DNA from: an uncultured Granulosicoccaceae bacterium
GTDB taxonomy: Bacteria; Pseudomonadota; Gammaproteobacteria; CALCKW01
Reading direction: 5' to 3'
Assembly: GCA_937925815.1 (NCBI GenBank)
Contig: CALAMQ010000037.1
Location: 1 to 43,074 of the forward strand
Length of the DNA: 43,074 bases
Made by a program: the position numbers and the translations under genes. The first letter of the stretch is position 1; each line of letters begins with the position of its first letter. This document shows positions 20,205 to 40,924 of this stretch, piece by piece. The notes under the pieces are model-generated. The model ran no database searches and was not told the DNA's origin. It saw nothing but the letters and a program-made list of their open reading frames with translations.

Positions 20205-20522
20205 ATGAACATCTCAACAATCCTATCCCGCTTCGCTTTCGCTCTGACTCTCTTCTCACTGGCAGGGTGTACCACCCTGCACTTCGACCGCGGTGAGCCC
20301 CTGCGCACCCCGGCGGCCAAATCGCAAAGCAGTTGGCATCACAATGTGCTGTTTGATCTCTACGAGCTCTCCGACCCAGTCAAACCCGCCCAAGTCTGCG
20401 GCAACACAGACTGGGCATCGGTCAAAGTGGAGAACAGCCTTGTGAACAATGTTGCGTCTTCAATGACCAACCTGTTTGGCCCGATCTGGTACCCACAAAC
20501 GGTAACGGTATCGTGCAGATAA
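20205..20522 (+). CDS. Small lipoprotein, coupled to the Bor-like gene
   Basis: ATG at 20205 follows the previous TGA by two bases, a tight translational coupling; the frame also opens earlier with GTG at 20193. The 105-residue protein has a lipoprotein signal, ILSRFAFALTLFSLAGC, with lipobox LAGC. The mature part keeps features of its neighbour: a His-rich segment (SSWHHNVLFDLYELSDPV), a QVCG cysteine, W in TDWASVKVEN, and a C-terminal VTVSC. This suggests a distant paralogue, with both forming a surface lipoprotein pair. Role unknown. Confidence 0.8.
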   Translation: MNISTILSRFAFALTLFSLAGCTTLHFDRGEPLRTPAAKSQSSWHHNVLFDLYELSDPVKPAQVCGNTDWASVKVENSLVNNVASSMTNLFGPIWYPQTVTVSCR

Positions 20523-34419: not shown

Positions 34420-36606
34420 TTATGAGCTCGATTTCTGCGCTCGCCAGTTGTGCAGTTTGGTGTAGCTCGCGATCAACCGCTGATGCTTATCCAGCCCATC
34501 TAAACGGCTATTGGTCTCGGTCAGCCCATAGAAGCGCAGGTCCCCTTTTACCGAATCAAGCGCGGCGCTAAAGGTCTCCTCGCCGTACAACCGGCGGAAA
34601 TTGTCGCAGTAGTCATCGAGCGCGAGCTCATCGTCTAAGGTGACGTGCAGAACCGCTTGCAGGGCTTGGAAAAAACGGTTTCGCTCAACCGTGTTGTCGT
34701 TGTATTGCAACAGCGCTTCAACCGGCTCGAGTGCGTGTTCGGGCTCACCCAAAGCGAGATCAATCAACAAACTGAGTTCGAGGATTGTGAGCTGGCCCCA
34801 AACCGTGTTCTCGTCAAACTCTATTCCAATCAGCGTGCGGATGTCGGTGTACCCGTCGAGACCGCTGTCATCGAGATCCGCAATCAACTCCCGCAGTGCC
34901 GCGTCGTCCAAGCGGTGCAAATTCAGAATGGTTTCGCGGAAGAGCAGCGCCTTATTGGTGTTGTCCCAAATCAAATCCTCGACTGGGTAGACCTCTGAAT
35001 AACCGGGCACCAGAATGCGACAAGCTGGCACACCGAGGTGATCAAACTCCGCGACATACGCTTCTTTGCCAAGCGCCTTAAGCAAATCAAACAAGTGCGC
35101 TGACTCTTGCGCCGTGCTGCCAGAGAAGTCCCAATCGCAAAAGCCGTGATCAGCCTTGGCACTGAAAAACCGCCAGGAGACCACACCGGTTGAATCAATA
35201 AAGTGCTCGACAAAATTTTCAGGCTCACGCACCGCAAGCGAATTGAAAGTCGGACGCGGCACATCATTGAGGCCCTCAAAACTGCGGCCTTGAAGCAACT
35301 CGGTCAGGCTGCGCTCAAGCGCCACTTCAAGCCGTGGGTGCGCACCGAAAGACGCAAAGACACCGCCGGTGCGCGGGTTCATGAGTGTTACGCACATCAC
35401 TGGAAACTGACCACCTAGGGAGGCGTCTTTCACCAACACTGGAAAGCCTTGGCTTTCAAGCCCCGCGATGCCATCAGCAATGGTTGGAAAGCGCTCAAGC
35501 ACATCCCGTGGCACGTCTGGAAGCGCGATTTCACCTTCAATGATTTCGCGTTTGACCGCGCGCTCAAAAATCTCCGACAAGCACTGTACCTGCGCTTCAG
35601 CCAAGGTGTTGCCCGCGCTCATGCCGTTACTTAAGAAGAGATTATCGATCACATTGCTCGGCACATACACCGTCTCGCCGTCGGAGTGACGCTTGTACGG
35701 CAGGCAGCAGATGCCGCGATCACGGCGGCCAGAATTTGTGTCGATCAGGTGCGAGCCGCGTAACTCGCCCTCTGGATCGAACACCGCCCGACAGTACGAG
35801 TCCAGTACGCCCACAGGCAGGCTGTCGTCAGCCTCCAGTGGAAACCACTTTTCCTCTGGGTAGTGGACAAAGGCCGCATTGGCGATATCGGGGCCGAAGT
35901 ACTGATCGTTGTAAAAGAAATTACAACTCAGGCGCTCAACAAATTCACCCAGAGCCGAACACAACGCGCTGTCGCGGCTGGCCCCCTTGCCGTTGGTGAA
36001 ACACATCGGGGATGCGGCATCGCGGATATTCAGTGACCACACATTGGGGACGATATTGCGCCAGGATGACACCTCGATCTTCATGCCGAGCGTGCTCAAG
36101 GTATCGGTCAGGCGCGCCACTGTGTCTTCTAGTGCAGCGTCTTTGCCAACAATGTGCGTGCGCGTGCCGTCGTCCTCGGGCAACATCAGCAGCGCTTGCG
36201 CGTCACCCTCAAGTTGGTCCACCGCGTTAATACGAAAATCTGGCCCGGCCTGCACCACTTTCTTAACTGTGCAACGGTCCACTGCGCGCAAAATGCCCAC
36301 CCGGTCTTTCTCAGACAAGGTCTCTGGCAATTCAACATCAATTTGGAAAATCTGGTTGTAGCGGTTTTCAGGATCGACAATGTTGTTCTGTGAAACCCGG
36401 ATGTCATCGGTCGAGATGTCGCGTGCCACGCAATACACGCGGATGAAATAGGCCGCACACAGCGCAGAGGACGCGAGAAAATAATCAAAAGGACTTGGCG
36501 CCGAGCCATCGCCCTTGTAGCGAATGGGCTGATCGGCAATCACCGTGAAGTCATCGAATGTCGCCTCGAGCCGAAGGTTGTCGAGAAAATTGACAGTGAT
36601 TTCCAT
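34420..36606 (-). CDS. OsmC domain-YcaO domain fusion protein
   Basis: I take ATG at 36606 (728 residues); the frame extends 65 codons upstream with unlikely composition. Residues 1-140 are an OsmC-type domain with its two redox cysteines, Cys50 (LASSALCAAYF) and Cys112 (DRCTVKKV). Residues about 190-560 are a YcaO domain: FTNGKGASRDSALCSALGEF, VERLS, then SAGNTLAEAQVQCLSEIFER, the conserved ATP-binding Glu-rich helices. The C-terminus (about 590-728) is helical and TPR-like. E. coli YcaO lacks the OsmC part. YcaO proteins activate amide backbones with ATP; E. coli YcaO assists RimO in methylthiolating ribosomal protein S12. The fused peroxidase-like domain suggests a redox link. No precursor peptide or dehydrogenase is adjacent. 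Confidence 0.92.
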   Translation of the reverse strand: MEITVNFLDNLRLEATFDDFTVIADQPIRYKGDGSAPSPFDYFLASSALCAAYFIRVYCVARDISTDDIRVSQNNIVDPENRYNQIFQIDVELPETLSEKDRVGILRAVDRCTVKKVVQAGPDFRINAVDQLEGDAQALLMLPEDDGTRTHIVGKDAALEDTVARLTDTLSTLGMKIEVSSWRNIVPNVWSLNIRDAASPMCFTNGKGASRDSALCSALGEFVERLSCNFFYNDQYFGPDIANAAFVHYPEEKWFPLEADDSLPVGVLDSYCRAVFDPEGELRGSHLIDTNSGRRDRGICCLPYKRHSDGETVYVPSNVIDNLFLSNGMSAGNTLAEAQVQCLSEIFERAVKREIIEGEIALPDVPRDVLERFPTIADGIAGLESQGFPVLVKDASLGGQFPVMCVTLMNPRTGGVFASFGAHPRLEVALERSLTELLQGRSFEGLNDVPRPTFNSLAVREPENFVEHFIDSTGVVSWRFFSAKADHGFCDWDFSGSTAQESAHLFDLLKALGKEAYVAEFDHLGVPACRILVPGYSEVYPVEDLIWDNTNKALLFRETILNLHRLDDAALRELIADLDDSGLDGYTDIRTLIGIEFDENTVWGQLTILELSLLIDLALGEPEHALEPVEALLQYNDNTVERNRFFQALQAVLHVTLDDELALDDYCDNFRRLYGEETFSAALDSVKGDLRFYGLTETNSRLDGLDKHQRLIASYTKLHNWRAQKSSS

Positions 36607-36925
36607 GGGGCGGGTCCGGTGACGGCAAGTGGAGACGTTGAGCAAAGCAGTGCCGGCGCACACGCGGCACCACAACTGACCACGCATTATGTCAGCTTTG
36701 CCGCGCTGACTCGCCAGCCACGACGCCACACGCCCCCAAAGCACTGAGTCACTGGCCAAGCACACCGAGACCGGCTCCGCGCTCTCGGCCAGTTGAGCCA
36801 CCTCGCGTGAATTGATCTCGGGCCGCGCTCAAGCCTGCCTGCCGCTGCGCGATACGTACTGTGAGCCGATGTGGATGTTTGCCACACGACACCACGGCCA
36901 CAATTGCCATCGGAGTGCCCGCCAG
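36607..36925. other. Divergent intergenic region, no gene seen
   Basis: It separates the starts of the OsmC-YcaO gene and the DUF4124 gene. Both reading frames continue open into it, but with Cys-, Arg- and His-rich composition that looks non-coding. I see no clear promoter or repeat. Confidence 0.4.
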
Positions 36926-37446: not shown

Positions 37447-37872
37447 TCAAGCCGGCGAGAAATCGGCTCCAACAGACTCCAGCGCCGACTGCGCAACGCT
37501 GATGTCCTGCTCCGCGCTTCCGCTGCCAACGCCAATACCGCCAAGTAACACGCCGTCGACGCGTATTGGCAACCCACCGCCAAGACCGGTGACTTCTCCC
37601 CCCGTGGCGGACGCGATATGCGGACGCACAGCCTCCGGTATGGCAGCGCTCGGCGCGCCAATGGACGCGGCCGTGCGCGCTTTAGCACGCGCACTTTTAC
37701 GCGACAAAAACTTTGCGCCAGTCATGCGTATCTCGGCGAGCAACTCCCCACTTGCGTCAACGATCACAATGCATTGTGGCTGGCCAAGCGCCTCCGCCTT
37801 TGCCACCGCCGCCTGCAACATCGCCAGCGCGCCTGCGTGAGTCAGTTGCGCGGTGGGTCGCGTGAAATCCAT
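37447..37872 (-). CDS. GlcG/HbpS-family heme-binding-type protein
   Basis: Start ATG at 37872 with a G-rich Shine-Dalgarno (GGGGG) seven bases upstream gives 141 residues. The protein shows the GlcG/HbpS fold: LTHAGALAMLQAAVAKAEAL, then CIVIVDASGELLAEIRMTGA, the KSARAKARTAASIGAPS helix, and GLGGGLPIRVDGVLLGGIGV with the Gly-rich turn. In Streptomyces HbpS binds heme; in E. coli the glcG gene belongs to the glycolate operon. Its gene lies 13 bases after the SMP-30 gene stop on the same strand, so it is probably its partner in one transcript. Ligand unknown. Confidence 0.88.
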   Translation of the reverse strand: MDFTRPTAQLTHAGALAMLQAAVAKAEALGQPQCIVIVDASGELLAEIRMTGAKFLSRKSARAKARTAASIGAPSAAIPEAVRPHIASATGGEVTGLGGGLPIRVDGVLLGGIGVGSGSAEQDISVAQSALESVGADFSPA

Positions 37873-37885
37873 CAGCGAACCCCCG

Positions 37886-38824
37886 TCACAATGCGGTCGC
37901 TGGCGGCACGCCGTTAACCGCGAGATAGACGCTGTATAACGACGTCGTTCCCGCAATAAAAAGTCGGTTCAACTTTGGCCCACCAAAGCAGACGTTGCCA
38001 ACGAATTCCGGGATCAGAATTTTCCCAATCAGATTGCCGTCTGAATCGAGGCAGTGCACGCCGTCAGCGGCTGAGCTCCAAATACGGCCCTGGGTGTCAC
38101 ACCGAAATCCGTCGAAAAACCCTGCTGTGCACTTGGCGAAGACTTCACCTGGCCCGAGAGATCGCCCACCATCGGTGACCGCATGTCGACGAATATGAGC
38201 TGGGCCGTTGTCATCGTGCGAGCCACCGGTGTCAGAGATATACAAGTGCGACTCATCTGGCGAGAAGGCCAGACCATTGGGTTTTAGGTAGTCACTGGCG
38301 ACAATCTCGACCTCCTCGGTCAGAGGGTCCCAGCGGTACACATGACAGGCACCGATTTCACTCGGTGCACGGCTGCCTTCGTAGTCGATCAAAATGCCGT
38401 AGCTTGGGTCAGTGAACCAAATCGACCCGTCGGATTTGACGACCACATCATTCGGCGAATTAAACCGCATGCCATCTGTACGCTCGGCAATCGCTGACAC
38501 GGAGCCGTCGAAATGGGTGCGGGTCACACGACGCGTCCGGTGCTCACATGAAACCAAGCGCCCCTGTGCATCCACTGAATGCCCGTTGCTGTTGTTGCAC
38601 GGCTGGCGGAATGTCGATACCGAACCGTCGGTCTCGTCCCATCTCAAAATGCGGTCGTTCGGGATGTCGGACCACAGCAAATACCGTCCGGCGGCAAACC
38701 ACACTGGCCCTTCAGACCACCGCGCTCCAGTCCAAAGCCTCTCCACGCGAGCGTGCCCAATGATGCATGCCCCAAAGGTGCTCTGAATCACCTCGAACCC
38801 TGTGCCCTCGATTTCACCAAACAA
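37886..38824 (-). CDS. SMP-30/gluconolactonase/LRE-family protein
   Basis: The 312-residue protein is a six-bladed propeller of the SMP-30 family: RWSEGPVWFAAGRYLLWSD with metal Glu38, MRFNSPNDVVVKSDGSIWFT, KPNGLAFSPDESHLYISDTG with Asn183, and GFFDGFRCDTQGRIWSS with Asp236. These three residues match the divalent-metal site of gluconolactonases, which open sugar lactones such as gluconolactone. Start is ATG at 38824. It leads a two-gene operon with the GlcG-type gene. Upstream lie a 10-base tandem repeat and a TGTTA-N4-TAACA site like GntR-type gluconate operators, which supports a sugar-acid role. Confidence 0.93.
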   Translation of the reverse strand: MFGEIEGTGFEVIQSTFGACIIGHARVERLWTGARWSEGPVWFAAGRYLLWSDIPNDRILRWDETDGSVSTFRQPCNNSNGHSVDAQGRLVSCEHRTRRVTRTHFDGSVSAIAERTDGMRFNSPNDVVVKSDGSIWFTDPSYGILIDYEGSRAPSEIGACHVYRWDPLTEEVEIVASDYLKPNGLAFSPDESHLYISDTGGSHDDNGPAHIRRHAVTDGGRSLGPGEVFAKCTAGFFDGFRCDTQGRIWSSAADGVHCLDSDGNLIGKILIPEFVGNVCFGGPKLNRLFIAGTTSLYSVYLAVNGVPPATAL

Positions 38825-38903: not shown

Positions 38904-38948
38904 CCAGCGCAAGCCAGCGCAAGCCAGCGCAAGCCAGCGCAAGCCAGC
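38904..38948. repeat. Tandem 10-base repeat, four and a half copies
   Basis: CCAGCGCAAG is repeated exactly four times at 38904-38943, followed by a partial copy CCAGC. It lies 80 bases upstream of the SMP-30 start codon, between that gene and the GntR-like site. Copy number may vary between strains by slippage and could change promoter spacing. Confidence 0.9.
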
Positions 38949-38956
38949 CGCCAAAT

Positions 38957-38970
38957 TGTTACCGATAACA
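38957..38970. promoter_or_regulatory. Gluconate-operator-like site upstream of the SMP-30 gene
   Basis: TGTTA (38957-38961) and TAACA (38966-38970) flank CCGA. This matches the ATGTTACC-GTAACAT type bound by the LacI-family regulators GntR/IdnR of enterobacteria, as I recall it. It lies 133 bases upstream of a gluconolactonase-family gene, so function and site agree. No LacI-type regulator gene is in the window. Confidence 0.45.
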
Positions 38971-39187: not shown

Positions 39188-39706
39188 ATGACTCAATTGA
39201 TTTTCCCCTTCAAAAGCGGTTATGTAAGACCTTTGGACGCCATTCCACTGGCGTTCGCACTGTTGGTCGCGGTTGCCACGTACGACATGATGTTGCATCA
39301 AGGGCAGCACCAGATCCTGTCCGTAGCTACACCCGCCCTCACGGAATTCCTCGGTGTCACACCGATACCCACGGCGGTTGAAAACGACACCGCAACACTC
39401 TTTGTGCTCGTCGCGGTATACGCGGAATGGGCTTCTCTTTTGGTGTTTTGTGGCGTCATCGCCGCGCTTCGCTGCGTCTTGCGGGTGTCAAACCAACACA
39501 CTGTGTCGCGCACGCCAAAGATGTTACTGAAAATTGATCCAACTCAGCATCACAAAAAACAGAGCACTTTGGATCTCCATAATCGCATTAAAATTAGCAC
39601 GCTAACGCTATCGCCTATCAGCACATGCTGCATTTTATTTTCATCTGCACTCGCCGCTAACAGTGCTATCGGAAGCGCTTTCACGCGCCCACGCGAAGAC
39701 AGGTAG
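39188..39706 (+). CDS. Hypothetical membrane protein upstream of the diguanylate cyclase
   Basis: The frame runs from ATG at 39188 to a stop 18 bases before the cyclase gene (172 residues). Two membrane segments are clear: IPLAFALLVAVATYDMML (about 19-36) and LFVLVAVYAEWASLLVFCGV (about 72-91). The C-terminal third is polar and of less usual composition, so the true gene may have been longer or changed by a frameshift. No family is recognised. The position suggests co-transcription with the heme-sensing cyclase. Confidence 0.45.
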   Translation: MTQLIFPFKSGYVRPLDAIPLAFALLVAVATYDMMLHQGQHQILSVATPALTEFLGVTPIPTAVENDTATLFVLVAVYAEWASLLVFCGVIAALRCVLRVSNQHTVSRTPKMLLKIDPTQHHKKQSTLDLHNRIKISTLTLSPISTCCILFSSALAANSAIGSAFTRPREDR

Positions 39707-39724: not shown

Positions 39725-40924
39725 ATGATCGATTCACTCAAAAAGCACTTATGCTCCAGGGAGCGATACCTGCTGACGATCATTGCCGTAGCTGCGGTGG
39801 TGTCTATGTACACCTATGAATCACTTTGGTCGCGCGGCGAGACCAAGATTGTCGAAGACTCTGCTCACGATAGCCGCCTCGTGCTTGGATTGACCGCCGG
39901 TTTTGTGCAGGCGTATTCCGAGTTCGAAGCCGAGTTCACATCCGAATTGATGCCGAACTCCGCCAGATACCGCGCGCACGCCATGAACCTCTCAGACTTG
40001 TCCTCAGCGCTCGGCGACGCGATGACATCAGACGTCTATGGCTTCTCTGGCAAATCTGTTTACGAGAAAAACACCAGCGATACGCTGAAGCGCAAAATGC
40101 GGGCGATGGAGAACACATCGCCCCCAACTGCGTCCACTTTTGTAACGCAAAACGGAGATCAAACCGTTCACAGCACAGTGTGGCCTTATTACGCAAAAGA
40201 CCAAGGCTGCGTTAATTGCCACAATTCACTGTTAAGCCGTTCGTCAGACTTCGAGTGGCAACTCGGCGACCTCATGGGCGCGCAAGTGATTGAGAGAAAT
40301 ATCACCGACCAACTCGAGGCACTCGAGAGGCAATCGCTCGGCGTCAGTGTGCTGGTGTTTTTTATTGTCATCACAGTCTTGTATTCCGCATCCATACTGA
40401 TGCGTCAAGTCACGCTGACAAAAGAACTGCAAAAACTCGCCACTGTAGACACTCTCACAGGCTGTCTGAACCGGCGTGAGGCACAAAGCCGCGCGAACAA
40501 TTTTGACGAATCTGTCAGCGGCGCGGTGTTGATGCTGGATATTGATCACTTCAAAAACATCAACGACACCTTCGGCCACTCAGCTGGCGACCGTATCATC
40601 AAAGACACCTCTGACAACGTCAAAGCGGCGCTGCGCAAATCTGACTGGGTCGCGAGGGTCGGCGGCGAAGAATTCCTGGTGTGGTTGGCCGGCGTGTCCT
40701 ACGAAGACGCCATCACAATTGCCGAGCGAATTCGAAGCCAGTGCGCCTCCTCGCGCACCACATTCGGCACGCGCACGGTTGCATACACCGTGTCTATCGG
40801 CGTTCACGCCGTGACCAATGCCAAGCCATCAAACTTTGACGAATGGGTATACGCCGCAGACACTCGGCTGTATCAAGCCAAAGGCGCAGGCCGCAATCGA
40901 ATCATCGGTCTGCAACCCGTCTGA
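39725..40924 (+). CDS. Diguanylate cyclase with periplasmic c-type heme sensor
   Basis: The 399-residue protein has TM1 near 15-31, a periplasmic domain (about 32-204), TM2 near 205-227 and a cytoplasmic GGDEF domain. The periplasmic domain resembles DUF3365/Tll0287-like sensors and holds a heme c motif CVNCH (Cys162, Cys165, His166) after WPYYAKDQG. The catalytic domain has MLDIDHFKNINDTFGHSAGD and the active-site GGEEF (313-317). RKSD (304-307), five residues before GGEEF, is the RxxD inhibitory site for c-di-GMP feedback. So a heme that senses redox state or a gas probably controls c-di-GMP synthesis. GAGG five bases before ATG 39725 sets the start. Confidence 0.92.
   Translation: MIDSLKKHLCSRERYLLTIIAVAAVVSMYTYESLWSRGETKIVEDSAHDSRLVLGLTAGFVQAYSEFEAEFTSELMPNSARYRAHAMNLSDLSSALGDAMTSDVYGFSGKSVYEKNTSDTLKRKMRAMENTSPPTASTFVTQNGDQTVHSTVWPYYAKDQGCVNCHNSLLSRSSDFEWQLGDLMGAQVIERNITDQLEALERQSLGVSVLVFFIVITVLYSASILMRQVTLTKELQKLATVDTLTGCLNRREAQSRANNFDESVSGAVLMLDIDHFKNINDTFGHSAGDRIIKDTSDNVKAALRKSDWVARVGGEEFLVWLAGVSYEDAITIAERIRSQCASSRTTFGTRTVAYTVSIGVHAVTNAKPSNFDEWVYAADTRLYQAKGAGRNRIIGLQPV

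Follow-up and report, generated by a model that had tools for sequence, protein, structure and literature searches.

Our analysis indicates that the palindromic 14-mer at positions 38957-38970 of the window (the whole 43,074-nucleotide stretch of DNA analyzed here) is very probably bound by a repressor of the gluconate/idonate type, whose gene lies elsewhere in the genome, and we have high confidence that the site forms part of a conserved gluconate/idonate-type regulon. The explanation we favor, and hold to be highly likely, is that the site is the operator of a GntR/IdnR-like repressor encoded on contig C51 and controls a detached SMP-30/HbpS-like gene pair, while a 10-bp tandem array beside it is neutral or nearly so. 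The preliminary description had placed a site of GntR/IdnR form before a gluconolactonase-family gene, with exact repeat copies between the two, and both are present upstream of the SMP-30/HbpS-like (GlcG) pair:

38957-38970, minus strand: operator TGTTACCGATAACA, reading TGTTATCGGTAACA in the operon direction; predicted for a LacI-type GntR/IdnR-like repressor
38904-38948, no strand given: tandem array of CCAGCGCAAG, 4.5 exact copies, non-coding, between operator and start codon
37886-38824, minus strand: SMP-30/gluconolactonase/LRE family gene, 312 amino acids (PF08450, 8.3e-46)
37447-37872, minus strand: HbpS-like (GlcG-type) gene, 141 amino acids, ATG at 37872 (PF03928, 2.6e-31)

Read in the direction of the operon, which is encoded on the minus strand, the site comes first, followed by the repeat, the SMP-30 start and the HbpS-like gene. 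The operator lies 132 bp from the SMP-30 start codon, a TTG (complement of 38822-38824) preceded by GAGGAG, where the sister species have GTG; a gap of 13 bp separates the SMP-30 stop from the HbpS-like gene. The SMP-30 protein contains an SGL domain, and its nearest solved chains, 3dr2 and 3e5z, are deposited as exported or putative gluconolactonase; it would be a gluconolactonase-type lactonase. A scan for sigma-70-like promoters around the site found none, compared with 0.4 expected, and so nothing beyond chance, and by eye we saw no convincing -10/-35 pair common to the window and the sister species. The window also encodes a GGDEF protein that carries a CVNCH (haem c-type) motif and has a Tll0287-like match, weak and below cut-off (39725-40924, plus strand), possibly a haem-sensing diguanylate cyclase, and a 793-aa frame with an OsmC-like domain followed by YcaO and YcaO_C domains (34420-36801, minus strand).

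We scanned the genome from which the window comes (3,555,601 bases in 183 contigs) for the palindrome TGTTAYCGRTAACA, and found four exact matches, compared with about 0.009 expected under a first-order Markov model derived from a 323-kb sample. Allowing one mismatch added no further match in this genome, and a control in which the pattern was read backwards gave none. The operator form TGTTA-N4-TAACA with a central CG is present in this set of four, whose other three members are:

C51, 17129: between the gene for the LacI-family regulator and a ugpC-type ABC ATPase gene
C51, 20414: flanked by a 2-hydroxyacid dehydrogenase gene on one side and by a divergent gene run on the other
C61, 17815 (L007:7816-7829): perfect site, 31 bp upstream of a 109-aa open reading frame (ORF; L007:7455-7784, minus strand)

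The two C51 sites flank the regulator gene, one on each side, within a cluster of ABC transporter, idonate dehydrogenase and gluconokinase genes. Genes for the 2-hydroxyacid dehydrogenase and an L-idonate 5-dehydrogenase-like protein (376 of 469 bits) lie between the site at 20414 and the regulator gene, and the divergent run encodes a gluconate 5-dehydrogenase-like SDR (302 of 408 bits), a gluconokinase (TIGR01313, above cut-off) and a 3-hydroxyisobutyrate-dehydrogenase-type protein. After the transporter genes comes cytochrome b561, and not SMP-30. The 109-aa ORF on C61, which has a weak ABM-like match below cut-off, is a predicted fourth regulon member; its homologues in sister species G002 and G001 are 68-69% identical and also have a site.

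The C51 regulator combines a LacI helix-turn-helix (HTH) domain (PF00356, 5.4e-19) with a periplasmic-binding-like sensor domain (PF13377, 4.1e-32). Among the five LacI-family proteins in the genome it is the closest to both Escherichia coli GntR (35.6%, 180 bits) and IdnR (32.9%, 176 bits), and the three NCBIfam models that score best against it are GntR (Pseudomonas), IdnR and GntR. It falls below the equivalog cut-offs of all three (274/400, 215/500 and 184/433 bits), and we therefore describe it as GntR/IdnR-like and not as a proven ortholog of either. The Pseudomonas GntR operators given in PMC12195362 and PMC5902321 differ in sequence from the window's operator, so that the likeness to Pseudomonas GntR holds for the protein model but not for the operator. 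The preliminary description had made its reading depend on a LacI-type gluconate regulator and a second site near gluconate genes. A genome-wide scan for the motif and for a LacI-family GntR homologue bore it out, in that the four exact sites were accompanied by the GntR/IdnR-like regulator gene on C51, with two of the sites in its cluster.

Comparative genomics shows both the conservation of the site and its membership in the four-site set. We compared four genomes of the genus (the window's own, G001, G002 and G003), a small sample in which G002 is 79% complete. Sister species G001 and G002 encode regulator orthologs that are 82% and 86% identical and SMP-30 proteins that are 81% and 82% identical, and in both the SMP-30/HbpS-like pair is kept away from the cluster with its own operator. 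The 14-mer TGTTATCGGTAACA precedes SMP-30 in the operon direction in all three species (window, G001 and G002), in surroundings that are poorly conserved among the sister species apart from the site. At the four positions (before SMP-30, ugpC and the 109-aa ORF, and between the dehydrogenase genes), the sister species have eight sites out of eight, six exact and two weaker: G002 is exact at all four, and G001 at two, with one mismatch in the ORF site and two in the intergenic dehydrogenase site. Further one-mismatch matches numbered two in G002 (control, 0) and nine in G003 (control, 2). G003, of the same genus, has no exact site, and its regulator homologue is only 37% identical.

To place the locus in a wider context, we scanned GTDB genomes for SMP-30 relatives and analyzed the best 80 of 445, which are 70-82% identical. 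These 80 are mostly from Alphaproteobacteria (the roseobacter group, Roseibium and others), with nine labelled Granulosicoccaceae. At least one match to a looser site, TGTKAYCGRTMACA, was found in 48 of these 80 loci, with 119 matches in total compared with 0 for each of three control palindromes; the other 32 had none. Among the 70 of these loci that reach 5.4 kb upstream, 42 have a TGTKAYCGRTMACA site at -5.05 to -5.4 kb, and in all three that we inspected (L102, L121 and L136) it lies directly before ugpC. Only four of the 80 have a site within 400 bp of SMP-30 (L064, which is G002, and L073, L106 and L126); in L126 the site lies between divergent ugpC and SMP-30 genes and thus may serve both. 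The 32 loci lacking a site and the small number with one close to SMP-30, like the regulator's scores below cut-off and the empty promoter scan, weigh against the favored explanation. On plasmids of Thalassococcus and Tateyamaria, SMP-30 lies downstream of a gene for a LacI-type regulator, four for an ABC transporter and one for cytochrome b561, and the same operator core precedes ugpC. The SMP-30 gene comes after the regulator/ABC cluster in roseobacters and some Granulosicoccaceae. Because C51 has no SMP-30 after cytochrome b561 and the pair is found elsewhere with its own operator, the arrangement in the window looks derived, with the SMP-30/HbpS-like pair detached from the cluster. The SMP-30 protein of the window (37886-38824) is closer to roseobacter plasmid proteins (L060 and L061, 76-77% identical) than to that of G003 in its own genus (51%), and almost as close to them as to its counterparts in G001 and G002 (81-82%), which suggests transfer of SMP-30 between Alpha- and Gammaproteobacteria.

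We weighed several other readings of the site. That the palindrome is a chance match might be argued from a looser search of the genome, in which tolerating as many as two mismatches to the window's 14-mer gave 19 matches, not many more than the 13 of the control; with so little excess we trust tight sites only. The exact palindrome, occurring four times against 0.009 expected and conserved in three species, makes chance extremely unlikely. Another of the five LacI-family regulators of the genome might recognize a similar motif, but the C51 regulator's own cluster contains sites here and in both sister species (two exact in G002; one exact and one weak in G001), sites are also found next to its homologues in roseobacters and in further Granulosicoccaceae, and we judge this reading highly unlikely. 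Finally, the site sits in an intergenic region between divergent genes and could serve the gene on its right (39188-39706, encoding an uncharacterized protein) instead of or besides SMP-30. A tblastn search with that protein found no match in the retrieved surroundings of the sister loci L158 and L163 (E at most 1e-5, identity above 28%), whereas SMP-30 comes after the site in all three species, leaving the divergent gene a very unlikely target.

The tandem array calls for separate treatment from the operator. With a period of 10, 4.5 copies, 100% matches and a TRF score of 90, it is the best of four arrays in the window. In a survey of 323,074 bases (the window together with 14 stretches of 20 kb each), it was the sole exact array with at least three copies of a 4-30 bp unit over at least 28 bp, and its TRF score ranked third of eight, after two imperfect arrays with longer units (931 and 104). 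The genome also contains, near the end of contig C5, a tandem array of a 205-bp unit (L154:205-708; 2.5 copies, 95% matches). The 10-bp array is missing before SMP-30 in both G001 and G002, and neither its own genome nor the three other genomes of the genus contain a second exact double CCAGCGCAAG unit, only three-mismatch matches. Within 600 bp upstream of SMP-30 in the best 80 of 445 loci (79 of the 80 with at least 400 bp upstream), the only exact array was in L079 and had a different unit. The distance from operator to start codon is 132 bp in the window, 85 bp in G002 and 58 bp in G001; without the 45 bp of the array it would be 87 bp in the window, so most of the excess comes from the array and the spacing is not tightly constrained. 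The SMP-30 frame is open for only four codons upstream of the start (an open frame of 316 aa for a protein of 312 aa), and the array therefore cannot cause frame switching.

Slippage of the repeat had been put forward as a route to phase-variable expression, which would make the array a contingency locus whose copy number switches or tunes the operon. That the copies are exact, and that such arrays are rare in the sampled part of the genome, suggests that the array expanded recently and may be unstable, and repeats near bacterial promoters can tune expression (PMC4081817). Each added copy also stabilizes the predicted leader fold, whose minimum free energy falls steadily from -31.7 to -81.7 kcal/mol as copies are raised in silico from 0 to 8, and this could affect elongation or mRNA life. 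However, the array is non-coding, lies downstream of the operator, and is absent from both sister loci, where spacing varies without it. The leader is not more stable than shuffled sequences (z = -0.44; 71 of 200 shuffles at least as stable), and predicted Shine-Dalgarno accessibility stays at 0.63-0.66 from 0 to 8 copies; on these two results we rejected leader RNA structure as a switch. A promoter between array and gene could make spacing matter, but the 10-bp step is about one helical turn and both sister species do without such an array. We thus did not uphold phase variation, and consider a contingency locus very unlikely. A narrower version, in which a hypervariable array length tunes the response of the repressor-controlled lactonase operon to sugar acids, also strikes us as highly improbable; if true, an environmental bacterium would have a contingency locus in a leader, and the operon behind it would be a catabolic one. 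Most likely, the array is a young, lineage-specific expansion in what would be an untranslated leader, neutral or nearly so, and of little consequence unless strain data show variation.

Returning to the C51 repressor and its predicted operator, we infer a mechanism in which control is by repression. When inducer is absent, a repressor dimer on the palindrome would keep the SMP-30/HbpS-like pair from being transcribed. The inducer would be gluconate, 6-phosphogluconate or a related sugar acid, which would release the repressor and so free not only the pair but also the ABC transporter, the idonate/ketogluconate-type dehydrogenases and the gluconokinase. Lactone forms of the sugar acid would enter the gluconate/idonate pathway through the lactonase. 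The pair probably left a cluster whose genes still stand together in roseobacters and some other Granulosicoccaceae, and the 10-bp array would have expanded recently, within the lineage, in the untranslated leader. Judged by genome comparison, the two genes are a separated part of a GntR/IdnR-type regulon, a kind already known, and have their own operator. These data suggest that two genes can move out of a catabolic cluster and stay under the same repressor by means of their own operator; they provide an experimentally testable regulon for a probable Granulosicoccaceae lineage and add SMP-30, HbpS-like and a small ABM-like protein to its predicted targets.

A close parallel in sequence comes from E. 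coli K-12, where the identical 14-mer TGTTATCGGTAACA lies before gntK. The gntR-gntK region has an overlapping, weaker second site starting 13 bp from the first, a pair that fits the overlapping GntR sites upstream of gntKU mentioned in PMC4052901; the window, by contrast, has a single site. The same paper places more than 75% of LacI-family sites 140-30 bp before the start codon and finds a central CG in nearly all even palindromes, and the window's operator, 132 bp before the start and with a central CG, fits this pattern. Like the E. coli idn region, the C51 cluster links idonate 5-dehydrogenase-like, gluconate 5-dehydrogenase-like SDR and gluconokinase genes, but it has ABC transporter genes where E. 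coli has gntU/idnT. The HTH of the C51 regulator is of the same type as in E. coli GntR/IdnR (GVTKMTVSR versus GVSRMTVSR), although overall identity is only 33-36% and scores are under the equivalog cut-offs, and the predicted targets (SMP-30, HbpS-like and the small ORF) are unlike those of the E. coli regulons. By sequence, the closest solved relative of the C51 regulator is 3e3m (448 bits over 315 residues), named only as a LacI-family regulator. A narrow literature search did not find Granulosicoccus, gluconate and LacI together, which does not show that the regulon is unpublished.

Known phase-variable promoter repeats, such as those of nadA and sabA, sit within the core promoter or immediately upstream of it. 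The array in the window resembles them in being a tandem repeat upstream of a gene, but it lies between operator and start codon, and the gene is predicted to be catabolic and not surface-related. Also close to the system are the clusters on Thalassococcus pS3A and Tateyamaria pDOK1-4-2, which share its genes (SMP-30 76-77% and regulator 63% identical) and its operator core. There the cluster is contiguous and paired, slightly degenerate sites precede ugpC, whereas in the window the SMP-30 pair stands apart, under an operator of its own.
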